A DNA stretch of 64,000 nucleotides from contig NZ_CP019936.1 of NCBI RefSeq assembly GCF_002009425.1, forward strand, positions 2,157,297 through 2,221,296, in the 5' to 3' direction. The stretch comes from Thiosocius teredinicola. Its GTDB lineage: Bacteria; Pseudomonadota; Gammaproteobacteria; Chromatiales; Chromatiaceae. The position numbers were made by a program, and so were the translations under genes. Below, piece after piece: positions 10,350 through 19,125 of the stretch; positions within the stretch are counted from its first letter, which is position 1, and every line of letters starts with the position of its first letter. The notes below the pieces were generated by a model, which was given only the letters and a program-made list of their open reading frames with translations, searched no databases and was not told where the DNA came from.

Positions 10350-10425
10350 GCGGGAATAGCTCAGTTGGTAGAGCACAACCTTGCCAAGGTTGGGGTCGCG
10401 AGTTCGAGTCTCGTTTCCCGCTCCA
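10350..10425 (+). tRNA. glyW: tRNA-Gly (anticodon GCC)
   Basis: The 76-base gene has acceptor stem GCGGGAA/TTCCCGC, D loop CAGTTGGTAGAG, anticodon arm CCTTGCCAAGG with anticodon GCC, T loop GTTCGAGTC and encoded CCA. It follows pgsA as in E. coli pgsA-glyW-cysT-leuZ. An integrative element sits in its 3' half; the gene remains complete because the element brings an identical copy of the tRNA end. Confidence 0.96.
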
Positions 10426-10430
10426 GATTC
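10379..10430 (+). repeat. left attachment repeat (attL)
   Basis: The 52 bases run from the anticodon stem of tRNA-Gly (CCTTGCCAAGG, itself an inverted repeat suited to a tyrosine recombinase core) through CCA and five bases beyond. They are identical to 19074-19125. Confidence 0.92.
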
Positions 10431-10526
10431 TTGTAGGTGATTGATTTTTCTCTCGGTTGTACGCCGCCACGGCGAACCGTAACCCCTAATCAGGGTTGTG
10501 TTCGTTTCGTACAGGGAGATCTGACA

Positions 10527-11417
10527 ATGCCTACCCTAAAAGACGTGGTTGCCGCCTTCGTGGCGGCGCGCGAATGCGACGTCTCCACGCTCTCACGGTT
10601 GGATTTCTGGGTGGCCGAACTCGGCCCCCGGGATCTGACTGAAATCACACCCGATGATGTTGATGCAGCAGTGGTGCACCTAGCTAGCCGGGGCCGATTA
10701 CGCCCATTGCGCGGCCGTGCAACTGTCGCCACCGGCAAACCGCTGGCCGGCTCTACCATCAACCGCTATATCAGCCAACTCGGCAGCCTGTACAAGTATG
10801 CTCGGCGGCTGCGCCTGATCCCGCGCACCTACGTTTTTCCGACCGCCAATATCGAGAAATTGCCTGAGCCGGTCGATCCGGAAAGCTACCTGCGTCCTGA
10901 AGAGGTCCAGCGGATCCTGGCCGTCGCTCGGGTCCTCGATCGGCGCTGGGGCAAGCTGTCGGCGCTGGTCGTGCTGGCCTATCACACCGGTCTGCGCAAA
11001 TCGAACCTCTTGAATCTCACGTGGGCCGATGTGGATCTAATCGCCGGCACCGCGACCGTCTCGCGCACCAAGAACGGCGAGCCGATCGTCGCGGCCTTAT
11101 CGAAGCGGTCCGTGGCTGAGTTGAAGAAACTGCCGGGCAAGCAGCCTGACGAACTCATTTTTGCCGGCAGGACAGGGCGTCCCATGCATTTTCGGGCGCT
11201 TTGGAACAAGGTCGTTATCGAGGCAGGTCTGGCGGGGCGTAATTTCCACCAACTGCGCCACGGCTGCGGCCACGCGTTGGCGACCGCCGGCGTCAATCAG
11301 GCGCAAATCATGGCGCTGATGGGGCATAAGACGCTGTCGGCGTCTGCCCGCTACATGCACCACAACACGCGCGACAAGGCTGAGATTGTTGCCAAGGTGT
11401 TCGACCGTGAAGGATAG
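10527..11417 (+). CDS. tyrosine recombinase / integrase
   Basis: A 296-residue site-specific recombinase next to attL, presumed to integrate and excise the element at glyW. The N-terminal SAM-like core-binding domain covers about residues 1-110 (GSTINRYISQLGSLYKYA). The catalytic domain shows the expected residues: Arg in YHTGLRKSNLLNL, Lys in SRTKNGEP, His-x-x-Arg in FHQLRHGCGHALA, His in MGHKTLSAS and the nucleophilic Tyr in ARYMHHN. The start at 10527 has GGGAG ten bases upstream; an upstream in-frame extension into the tRNA end is unlikely. It lacks an N-terminal arm-binding domain of lambda type, so it is a short integrase. Confidence 0.93.
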   Translation: MPTLKDVVAAFVAARECDVSTLSRLDFWVAELGPRDLTEITPDDVDAAVVHLASRGRLRPLRGRATVATGKPLAGSTINRYISQLGSLYKYARRLRLIPRTYVFPTANIEKLPEPVDPESYLRPEEVQRILAVARVLDRRWGKLSALVVLAYHTGLRKSNLLNLTWADVDLIAGTATVSRTKNGEPIVAALSKRSVAELKKLPGKQPDELIFAGRTGRPMHFRALWNKVVIEAGLAGRNFHQLRHGCGHALATAGVNQAQIMALMGHKTLSASARYMHHNTRDKAEIVAKVFDREG

Positions 11418-12003
11418 GGAGAACTCGCCGCTCATCAGTGCGGAAGGACGGAAAAGACTCCAAACCCTTCTCGGTGAATGTGCTGGAGAGTTCATCGTTG
11501 CGGCTGAAGATGCCGTGGATCTTTATTTCGCCCTTCGGGAAACATCGAAGAAACGACGAGAGGCTGCGCTATCAACGCCGAAGCAAGCCGAAACTGCTTT
11601 GAGCGACATTGCCGGATCGTCTGGGCGCCTGGCATCACAACTGAATCAGTTTACGCCGGCAGATTGGTCGCGGATTCGTGAACGTGCGTTTCTGCGCGAT
11701 AGCGCCGCGCCGCTGTTGAGCGTTGATCTGTTGGAGATTGTCGTCTTACTGCAAGATCTGCAGTTTGCAGCTGCAGACGAGGCTGCAGCTGTTGGCCCGT
11801 TCGTTCGCAAAGGCCGTCAGGCGGGTTCGGAAGGCGTACTGTTTATCCGTCATCTTGCTGATCGTTGGTCGTGCGAAGGCAAGATAAGCCCCGCCAAGAA
11901 AGGCCAGTTTTATCGCGCTGTGCAGCTTGTTTGTGAATTCAGCCAAGTGCCGGTTAGCGATCCCACCGGATGGATCGAAAGCTACCTAGAACTACAGAAT
12001 TAG
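11407..12003 (+). CDS. unknown protein of the integrative element
   Basis: A protein of about 198 residues, mainly helical, with no motif I recognise. It is soluble, rich in Ala, Leu, Arg and Glu, with a charged segment ALRETSKKRREAAL near residue 40 and a C-terminal part ending GWIESYLELQN. The GTG at 11407 lies inside the end of the integrase gene (11-base overlap), which suggests coupling; a TTG at 11386 is also possible. It is probably transcribed with the integrase. Confidence 0.6.
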   Translation: MKDRENSPLISAEGRKRLQTLLGECAGEFIVAAEDAVDLYFALRETSKKRREAALSTPKQAETALSDIAGSSGRLASQLNQFTPADWSRIRERAFLRDSAAPLLSVDLLEIVVLLQDLQFAAADEAAAVGPFVRKGRQAGSEGVLFIRHLADRWSCEGKISPAKKGQFYRAVQLVCEFSQVPVSDPTGWIESYLELQN

Positions 12004-12095
12004 TTCGATTAGCTGATTTCTAAGGTGCCGACTTAGCGTCGACACGCCATTACGCTCTAAGCATCGCCAAGTGGCGGCGAGCAACCGAGCGTACC

Positions 12096-12350
12096 ATGAG
12101 CAAAAGCTATACACCCCTTGATTTCAAGAAACGTCGCGAATGGGTCATCGAAGACGGCGGCGAGCTATTCGGCACCGTCGGGTCGTTTGACTGGTTCGTA
12201 CGACAGCATAGGCAAGAGCTTGTCGATTCTGGCGAACTGATCATTCGGCGCGGGCCTGGTGGGTCGTTGGTTGGCCCCGGGTTCGGCGATGTCGCGATCG
12301 GTATCCTTCAGCGAGAGGCACGCCGAATTGCCGATGTTCATGCCGTATGA
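12096..12350 (+). CDS. small unknown protein of the integrative element
   Basis: An 84-residue protein beginning MSKSYTPLDFKKRREWV, with a central FDWFVRQHRQELVDSGELII and a glycine-rich turn RRGPGGSLVGPGF. The middle part could form a short DNA-binding or recognition helix, but this is only a guess. Its stop overlaps the next ATG by four bases, so it heads a coupled string of small genes (12096-12735). Confidence 0.6.
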   Translation: MSKSYTPLDFKKRREWVIEDGGELFGTVGSFDWFVRQHRQELVDSGELIIRRGPGGSLVGPGFGDVAIGILQREARRIADVHAV

Positions 12351-12625
12351 GCGACGGACTCCCACCTGACGTCCTCAAGTTTCAGCGTCGAACAACGAAA
12401 CAGCCGGCTGATATTTCAGCGGACGAGGATCTTTCAGTTCGCTTGGAACGTTCGCGTCGTGAACTGTTTCGGCTCACTGACTGCGTCGAGAAGTATGAGC
12501 GCGAACTGCAGACCGCAGATGTGCTCTTTGACTTCCGAATAGCTCAAGTTCGATTACTCGAAGAGTGGAACGATCTTAAGACGAAGCTAAGCACGCTCAA
12601 CCGCGACGAAGGTGGTATGACATGA
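12347..12625 (+). CDS. small coiled-coil protein of the integrative element
   Basis: A 92-residue protein with a long heptad-like region from about residue 28 to 85 (LERSRRELFRLTDCVEKYE and LEEWNDLKTKLSTL) that should form a coiled coil. No family recognised. ATGA overlaps join it to genes on both sides, so it is very likely co-translated with them. Confidence 0.6.
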   Translation: MSDGLPPDVLKFQRRTTKQPADISADEDLSVRLERSRRELFRLTDCVEKYERELQTADVLFDFRIAQVRLLEEWNDLKTKLSTLNRDEGGMT

Positions 12626-12735
12626 ACGAGCTTCAGGATCATCACGGTCCCGTGAGCGGCTACCGGCGAGGCATCAAAGACGCTTCGCGGCCGAAGGCTT
12701 ACCAAGCGGTAGGCTGTGTGCTTGGCGTTCTCTGA
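12622..12735 (+). CDS. putative 37-residue protein
   Basis: A short frame starting at the ATGA overlap with the preceding gene and ending just before the next start. It encodes MNELQDHHGPVSGYRRGIKD and a further 17 residues. The coupled start is the main evidence; composition is unremarkable and it has no recognised motif. It could be a genuine small gene or a coincidental frame between two genes. Confidence 0.35.
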   Translation: MNELQDHHGPVSGYRRGIKDASRPKAYQAVGCVLGVL

Positions 12736-18569: not shown

Positions 18570-18597
18570 TTTTTGATTTTAGCCCGTACAAAAATCC

Positions 18598-18645
18598 TTG
18601 ACGAACTCGGATGGTTGAGTGATATTTATTGTACGTACAAAAAAT
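18598..18645 (+). promoter_or_regulatory. promoter and operator between divergent small genes
   Basis: TTGACG (18598-18603) and GATATT (18621-18626) are 17 bases apart. A perfect palindrome TTGTACGTACAA (18629-18640) lies around the expected transcription start, and GTACAAAAA occurs both within its right side (18635) and at 18586. A repressor bound there could shut both promoters; the ribbon-helix-helix protein next to it is the natural candidate. Confidence 0.6.
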
Positions 18646-18662
18646 TGCATTAGGACGCGATC

Positions 18663-18917
18663 ATGACCAAAGATAACCTCTACAAAGTTCCTGAGAACTA
18701 CCTGTGCTCTTCGCACGTACTGCCGGCAGACGTGGCGGAGAATCTCCACGCCTACCTCTTGGCCCTTGACGCCATTGATCCAGAGCAATTGGTTGACCAG
18801 AGGGCGGTATTTGGTATGCATTTGGCCATTCAGACGGCGGTGGAGACTGCGAAGTTTCTGTGTCAGCTTCTCGATCCGAATTACCTAACGGATGGAGAAG
18901 AAAACACGGACATCTAG
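18663..18917 (+). CDS. small unknown protein divergent from the RHH-like gene
   Basis: An 84-residue acidic, mostly helical protein (SSHVLPADVAENLHAYLLAL, then AVFGMHLAIQTAVETAKFL). AGGA lies eight bases before the ATG, and a promoter with operator is just upstream. No family recognised. A role as partner of the divergent ribbon-helix-helix protein, or as a regulator of excision near attR, is inference from position only. Confidence 0.55.
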   Translation: MTKDNLYKVPENYLCSSHVLPADVAENLHAYLLALDAIDPEQLVDQRAVFGMHLAIQTAVETAKFLCQLLDPNYLTDGEENTDI

Positions 18918-19006
18918 CAATCGGTGAATTCGATGTTGGATTGCATTGCACTCGCTAAGTTGGGTGTTATCGAAAGGCGGTTATAAGCAGAACCCTGTCA
19001 TAGTTC

Positions 19007-19036
19007 TTTCCAATTCCGTGTGACTTCGAGTATGAT
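19007..19036 (+). promoter_or_regulatory. candidate promoter at the right end of the element
   Basis: TTTCCA (19007-19012) and TATGAT (19031-19036) are 18 bases apart and are followed by a GC-rich discriminator. It points out of the element toward cysT and leuZ, which the insertion has cut off from the glyW promoter. Confidence 0.35.
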
Positions 19037-19073
19037 TCGCCGCGTTCCGCTGAGCGGTGCTGAGGGTGATCGT

Positions 19074-19125
19074 CCTTGCCAAGGTTGGGGTCGCGAGTTC
19101 GAGTCTCGTTTCCCGCTCCAGATTC
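19074..19125 (+). repeat. right attachment repeat (attR) with tRNA-Gly remnant
   Basis: Identical over 52 bases to the 3' part of glyW at 10379-10430. The 5' half of a tRNA is missing, so it does not encode a tRNA. The chromosome resumes with the hairpin and tRNA-Cys that originally followed glyW. Confidence 0.92.

Follow-up and report, generated by a model that had tools for sequence, protein, structure and literature searches.

An island of about 8.7 kb in the genome of Thiosocius teredinicola is most plausibly a capsid-encoding phage satellite that would set a small shell of its own on the portal of a helper phage; judged from its genes, this reading has a probability of roughly 0.55. The island occupies positions 10379–19125 of the window, the 64,000-nucleotide stretch analysed here (positions 2,157,297 to 2,221,296 of the single 4.79-Mb contig NZ_CP019936.1); its features are listed in Table 1. 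Between perfect att repeats it carries an integrase gene and a gene for a fused prohead protease and capsid protein, as an earlier note made from the letters of this DNA had described. The likeness to capsid-encoding satellites that the note proposed is also supported: other genomes and viral contigs, including a circular one, carry a similarly reduced gene set, and the capsid is under selection in the two pairs of relatives that could be tested. Because the gene set recurs, a group in the capsid tree is well supported and two pairs are under purifying selection, a one-off deletion remnant is unlikely, and so is an encapsulin.

The protease–capsid fusion

The frame of the fusion is open across all 619 amino acids (aa), through both the protease and the capsid domains; the alignment suggests that the true start may be the GTG at 14452. 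Such fusions form a known family, for which an NCBIfam model exists and which the phages VP882, phiHAP-1 and Mica as well as cyanophages encode. The fusion itself is not novel; its genetic setting is. Among the best 30 of 114 records, no phage capsid exceeds 36% identity to it. Capsid matches also occur on plasmids (17 records).

HK97 proheads need just the capsid protein plus a protease. In the protease part, H83, S129 and E158, presumably the catalytic residues, are invariant in an 11-row alignment. Structural prediction, one of the checks that the earlier note had suggested, gave an HK97-fold model (AlphaFold2, 26 rows; mean predicted local distance difference test (pLDDT) score 74.9, predicted template modelling (pTM) score 0.49, protease domain about 90), in which the predicted helices at 195–261 fit a delta domain. 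The top Foldseek matches, over the capsid part, are the heads of phages R4C and HK97; the head of EcCI2, a capsid-forming phage-inducible chromosomal island (cfPICI), ranks 36th.

The shell might instead serve the host as an encapsulin-like compartment, an alternative that the note had left room for and that the HK97 fold would suit. Encapsulins are HK97 shells without a prohead protease or mobility genes. The fused protease, delta-type helices, TerS-like neighbour (TerS, small terminase subunit), integrase and att sites all speak against this identity, which was rejected because the protease fusion and the mobility genes contradict encapsulin features. The best 50 of 827 Foldseek matches all belong to heads of phages, gene-transfer agents or satellites, and no encapsulin is named among them. 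A host compartment is accordingly very improbable.

No family for the large terminase subunit (TerL), portal, connector or tail was found among the ten island proteins tested with Pfam, PHROGs and NCBIfam, and a tblastn search with the TerL and portal proteins from two related phages gave no significant remnant in the island. A complete tailed prophage was rejected, since TerL, portal and tail genes were not found in it. The absence of portal, terminase and tail genes, as first described, thus stands for TerL, portal and tail; it does not extend to TerS, and the statement that there is no other virion gene has to be withdrawn, since the gene next to the capsid gene matches TerS (see below).

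Related elements in genomes and viral contigs

A database search for the same gene set, likewise suggested at the outset, found it again (handles beginning with G denote genomes, those with L loci). An integrase, a replication gene and a capsid gene, with no TerL or portal, occur in three other genomes (G076, G124, G320) and three IMG/VR contigs (L038, L047, L194). TerS is present in four of these six elements, the bounded ones measure 8.1–9.6 kb and one is circular; three partial contigs (L025, L026, G061) can be added. TerS matches were obtained in G076, L026, L038, L047 and L194.

Within the order, seven capsid matches at 1e-30 are held by six of 210 genomes. The surroundings of three are those of a prophage: G124:C7 and G141 come with both portal and TerL, and G042, on a contig of 4.7 kb, comes with a portal. 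Neither portal nor TerL is within reach of the other four, which are the window, G076, G124:C21 and G061; on the 3.9-kb contig of G061, a DUF5906 gene stands ahead of the capsid gene. The G076 element (8,124 bp, 46-bp att repeats, at a tRNA-Val) carries integrase, TerS (phrog_57, 1.4e-18) and capsid; its Prim-Pol gene is partial and adjoins a DDE_5 transposase. The G124 element consists of integrase, HTH_17, DUF3987 and capsid genes, and neither a TerS nor an att repeat of at least 14 bp was found in it. The genome that holds it, Candidatus Thiodiazotropha endoloripes (Chromatiales; L013, L015), also has a VP882-type prophage with a related capsid, and the two are a candidate satellite–helper pair.

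At 1e-60, capsid matches turned up in three genomes out of 369 sampled across the class and in seven out of 398 across the phylum; both counts include T. teredinicola. Six of the eight matches outside the window are portal-bearing prophages (G466, G653, G745, G673, G713, G744). G320 is satellite-like (8,953 bp, 47-bp att repeats, at a tRNA-Arg), with an AAA_25 gene and a capsid fusion. With two further genes (L096 7281–9097), one for a gpZ-type protein (PF06763) and one for a tape-measure-like protein of 415 aa (phrog_9483, 3.7e-39), it may influence tails as well as heads. In the remaining, more distant match, G896 (L102), pieces of the capsid lie in two frames and the gene is apparently broken.

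Capsid scans started from single proteins gave 0–2 loci each, except one with 78 loci. In a first set of 61 loci from viral contigs, the capsid gene is preceded by at least 1.2 kb in 48, of which 44 show a portal; L025, L026, L038 and L047 show none. A second set of 80 loci has 55 informative ones, and the portal search was positive in all except L185 and L194 (53 of 55). L185 was rejected as a portal-less satellite, since Pfam found TerL and portal of other families, as in an ordinary phage. It shows that the portal model misses other portal families, and leftover open reading frames (ORFs) of the satellites were checked for this reason: in the window, G076, G124, G320, L038, L047 and L194, no unassigned selected ORF exceeds about 290 aa, which is too short for the usual portal or TerL. 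L060, L101 and L151 have a portal; TerL was not found in L060 and L151.

L038 (8,580 bp) carries integrase, DUF3987, capsid fusion and TerS, and its 127-bp terminal repeat suggests a circle of 8,453 bp, with the caveat that 127 is a common assembler word length. L194 (8,764 bp) has integrase, DUF3987 (5e-92), TerS (Nu1, 2.4e-12), the capsid fusion and, truncated where the contig ends, a repressor-like gene; it has no terminal repeat, so that its length need not be that of the complete element. L047 has integrase, a Toprim gene, an AAA-type gene, separate protease and capsid genes and TerS (phrog_83, 7e-15), within weaker boundaries (21-bp repeats 9,630 bp apart). A block of 79% identical DNA, from the end of TerS through the capsid gene, is shared by L026 (917–3555) and L194 (5741–8386), while their TerS genes differ; this looks like a TerS swap.

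Capsid phylogeny and selection

The capsid tree was built from 45 of 80 capsids; near-copies and loci without a clear label (including L018 and L102) were left out, and L194 was found later. Six of the eight portal-less capsids (the window, G076, G124, L025, L038, L047) form one group with support of 99/97; the other two, L026 and G320, fall outside it on branches with weak support. The portal-less label requires 2 changes on the tree, compared with 7.5 in shuffles (0 of 500 as low). The portal-less capsids may have a single origin, with which the tree is compatible.

Ratios of non-synonymous to synonymous substitution (dN/dS, NG86) show purifying selection on the capsid in both related pairs. 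For L025/L038 they are 0.27 and 0.29 for the two parts of the capsid gene, 0.42 for TerS, and 0.35 and 0.38 for two small genes; for L026/L194 they are 0.19 for the whole capsid gene, 0.29 for the protease part and 0.10 for the capsid part. A control prophage pair gave 0.09 for the capsid and 0.06 for the portal.

These data bear on the possibility of a decayed prophage that lost TerL, portal and tail through deletions, both in the stretch from TerS to capsid and further on, and whose remaining genes are passengers. TerS followed by the capsid is the order that deletion of TerL and portal would leave, the TerS-like and replication genes of the island are reduced, the primase piece of G076 is partial and lies beside a transposase, and the G896 capsid gene seems broken. 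Against this, the reduced set recurs at varied sites and in varied hosts, in more than one gene order, with similar sizes where bounded and once as a circle; capsid genes are open, and under selection where testable; L026 and L194 keep the capsid block while TerS differs; and the att repeats of the island are perfect. The earlier note would have given up its view had relatives revealed a deletion remnant or disabled capsid genes; for the group as a whole neither was found, G896 being an apparent exception. Decay is thus a rather unlikely origin, although decay of this single copy may still be compatible with the data.

The TerS-like gene, putative replication gene and repeat array

The TerS-like gene stops four bases ahead of the capsid gene. 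Its product matches TerS of prophages from the same family with 40% identity over 80 aa (5e-12, L015) and 41% over 79 aa (8e-12, L016); PHROGs gives TerS (phrog_57, 0.0048) and a repressor (phrog_35, 0.025), and Pfam weak helix-turn-helix matches. A C-terminal TerS part in another frame was sought by tblastn and not found. The gene may encode a diverged or shortened TerS; given the repressor and helix-turn-helix matches, a pure regulator may be the alternative. Of the packaging or capsid-remodelling genes typical of satellites like the phage-inducible chromosomal islands (PICIs), the island thus has the capsid gene and, more weakly, the TerS-like N-terminal domain.

The 188-aa product of the putative replication gene matches a prophage helicase (28% over 58 aa, 1.7e-5). 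PICI-like satellites have a replication gene and origin of their own; the island offers for these a helicase-type C-terminal domain and a repeat array. Between this helicase-type gene and the TerS-like gene, GTTGGGCA occurs six times within 13337–13587 (251 bp) and nowhere else in the 64 kb. Six copies were reached in 2 of 100 shuffles of the whole window; the clustering of all six in 251 bp should make chance far less likely. Repeated 8-mers past the replication gene were also sought in seven other elements, and are clear in L025 (six copies), G320 (five) and G124 (four), weak in L194 (three), and present in at most two copies in L038, L047 and G076.

Integration site

Integrase and att sites at a host gene, a further hallmark of PICI-like satellites, are present. 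The left att copy is the 3′ end of tRNA-Gly(gcc), and the two identical copies are spaced 8695 apart. The same site is empty in two genomes of the genus (G186/L108 and G193/L113), where pgsA and a full tRNA-Gly are followed by tRNA-Cys 80–82 bp further on. G191 has a full tRNA-Gly ahead of tRNA-Cys at a contig edge, and other islands occupy the site in G189 and G192.

The frame of the integrase is open, and the residues R (TGLR), HxxR, GH and Y, which we take to be its motif, are all present. At 1e-40 the integrase was found in 3 of 38 genomes, namely T. teredinicola and two of the same genus, with 74–76% identity, at the same tRNA-Gly and with other cargo; the G192 match has one internal stop. 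These same-genus islands, with integrases about 75% identical and differing cargo, span L020 3046–14062 (about 11 kb, with a 48-bp att repeat) and L019 9819–14817.

Besides the att pair, the window has one further direct repeat of at least 30 nt, an array beside a tRNA-Ser gene. Three 87-nt copies at 4224–4647, spaced 168–169 bp, each end in an apparent 3′ end of tRNA-Ser(tga) (gene 4629–4718); repeated integration is perhaps their source.

Proposed mode of action and alternatives

Infection by a helper tailed phage would lead to excision of the island, and replication would start from the GTTGGGCA array. The island TerS would mark island DNA for the TerL of the helper, the self-cleaving capsid protein would assemble into a small head around the portal of the helper, and the connector and tail of the helper would complete it. 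Gene anatomy suggests that portal, packaging motor and tail are probably borrowed in this way.

In the model of PMC7762592, genomes of 8.1–8.9 kb correspond to a triangulation number (T) of about 2.3–2.5, and T = 3 to 11.8 kb (8.1–17.1); one packaged copy of the island in a fitted head would therefore need a T of 3 or less. The head of satellite P4 (11.6 kb), with T = 4, exceeds the size predicted from its genome (PMC7762592), so that the prediction for T may not hold. A narrower proposal, put forward tentatively, is a distinct satellite lineage that makes a complete head from one self-cleaving fusion, with a T of 3 or less for a genome of 8–9 kb, uses the portal of the helper and swaps TerS to suit it. 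Such a head is predicted to be smaller than characterised tailed-phage heads.

There is a second way in which a satellite could use a lone capsid gene. The protein might co-assemble with the capsid protein of the helper, for example at pentamers, force small heads and hinder the helper, and form no shell alone. Ccm of SaPIbov5, a Staphylococcus aureus pathogenicity island (SaPI), is such a lone homologue, located at pentamers and unable to form capsids unaided (PMC8569155), and the Gram-negative PICIs PmCI172 and EcCICFT073 have one too (PMC6893505, PMC6092414); the relative in G124, a capsid without a protease, fits as well. The island, however, has its protease fused, with the conserved residues kept, and the low identity to phage capsids may hinder mixed shells. 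Furthermore, EcCICFT073 gave no small heads with phage lambda (PMC6893505), and deletion of its capsid homologue left interference in place (PMC6092414); a satellite's single capsid gene does not necessarily work as Ccm does. An own shell is preferred because the protease and the delta-type region are retained, which leaves co-assembly a minority possibility; sequence cannot tell the two apart.

Several observations weigh against a satellite with its own shell. L025/L038 has a dN/dS roughly three times as high as the control capsid, so that this pair is less constrained than a phage capsid, and selection was measured on relatives only, since the window capsid is too distant and its synonymous sites are saturated. 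The TerS-like protein resembles TerS across the N-terminal 80 residues only, no primase or helicase domain was found in the 188-aa protein of the putative replication gene, and most relatives have less reduced versions of both genes. TerS was not found in G124 or G320, and the G124 capsid lacks the protease part, so that not every relative can mature alone. Lastly, a resident helper was not found: the T. teredinicola genome has no match to portal families PF04860 and PF05136 or TerL families PF05876, PF03354 and PF03237, so that any helper would be of another family or would have to arrive by infection.

Nearest known systems

The nearest known systems are phiRv1/phiRv2-type elements, PmCI172 and SaPIbov5. 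All of these also have a capsid gene without a full head set, so that the island cannot be called far more reduced than known capsid-encoding satellites, as had been thought. phiRv1, phiRv2 and related mycobacterial elements such as phiBN42_1 are called PICI-like (PMC10654092). phiRv1 (9.3 kb) and phiRv2 (10.8 kb) are close to the island in size, and the functions assigned in phiBN42_1 are integrase, excisionase, primase, prohead protease and capsid (PMC3986857, PMC10654092). In contrast to the island, they belong to Actinobacteria, and protease and capsid are separate genes in phiBN42_1; the likeness is one of description only.

PmCI172 and EcCICFT073 share with the island a capsid homologue without the full head set, and small heads of PmCI172 are carried on full-length tails; the accessible sections of PMC6893505 and PMC6092414 mention no protease fusion. 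E. coli PICIs have an AlpA regulator, whereas no AlpA-type match was found among the window proteins. SaPIbov5, a cos-type SaPI, contributes one capsid homologue and no other island protein to procapsids (PMC8569155); unlike the proposed self-cleaving protein, Ccm is cut by the protease of the helper.

cfPICIs and the Streptomyces satellites MulchRoom and MiniFlayer have their own capsid gene, as the island does, and with cfPICIs the island shares its own capsid and protease. They encode a head and packaging set including portal and TerL, and the definition of cfPICIs also asks for own connectors (PMC10690885); these the island lacks, and it falls outside that definition. VP882, phiHAP-1 and Mica have a fusion of the same family (32–35% identical), yet each is a complete phage whose genes include TerL, portal and a contractile tail. 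The literature already describes satellites with a lone capsid homologue; one with a protease–capsid fusion and TerS, without portal and TerL, was not among the matches listed for the open-licence papers searched.

Other genes of the island

The remaining genes give few clues to function. The word ‘regulators’, used of the island initially, is loose: it suits the 57-aa ribbon-helix-helix protein, likely a regulator, and beyond that just the weak helix-turn-helix matches of the TerS-like protein. HTH_17 or excisionase-type genes are present in G124, G320 and L047. A shared gene behind the integrase of all satellites was considered and rejected, as phmmer, with seven proteins compared, links only the window with G192 and G189 with G320. 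PADLOC gave no match to defence cargo among nine island proteins (integrase left out), and a search for structured RNA with Rfam on 10300–19500 gave nothing except tRNAs at gathering score.

Table 1. Features of the T. teredinicola island and its attachment gene (window positions).
Feature	Position	Strand	Evidence or remark
tRNA-Gly(gcc), attachment gene	10350..10425	+	ARAGORN
Left att repeat, 52 bp	10379..10430	.	Repeat search; 100% identical to right copy
Tyrosine integrase, 326 aa	10437..11417	+	Pfam Phage_integrase 9.7e-29
orf2	11386..12003	+	30% match behind related integrase of G192
orf3, 84 aa	12096..12350	+	58% match over 76 aa in G189 island
orf4, 92 aa	12347..12625	+	No family in Pfam, PHROGs
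Putative replication gene, 188 aa	12742..13308	+	C-terminal part like C-terminal domain of phage replicative helicases; phrog_1313 4.2e-8
Origin-like repeat array, six GTTGGGCA	13328..13590	.	All six exact copies in the 64-kb window
TerS-like gene, 195 aa	13797..14384	+	About 80 N-terminal aa match TerS
Prohead protease/HK97-type major capsid protein fusion, 619 aa	14389..16248	+	Phage_capsid 7.2e-35, Peptidase_S78 3.7e-6, PHROG major head protein 1.2e-115
Cargo protein, 286 aa	16989..17849	-	No family in Pfam, PHROGs, PADLOC, NCBIfam
Ribbon-helix-helix type protein, 57 aa	18396..18569	-	NikA-like 3.4e-5, below Pfam cut-off
84-aa protein	18663..18917	+	No family in Pfam, PHROGs
Right att repeat, 52 bp	19074..19125	.	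Repeat search

Significance

The finding places satellites of this kind, which keep a capsid gene and often TerS but neither portal nor TerL, both in Gammaproteobacteria and among environmental viral contigs. Such satellites would represent a state between capsid remodelling of the SaPI type and cfPICIs, and they make a question testable, namely how much of the head a satellite must supply.

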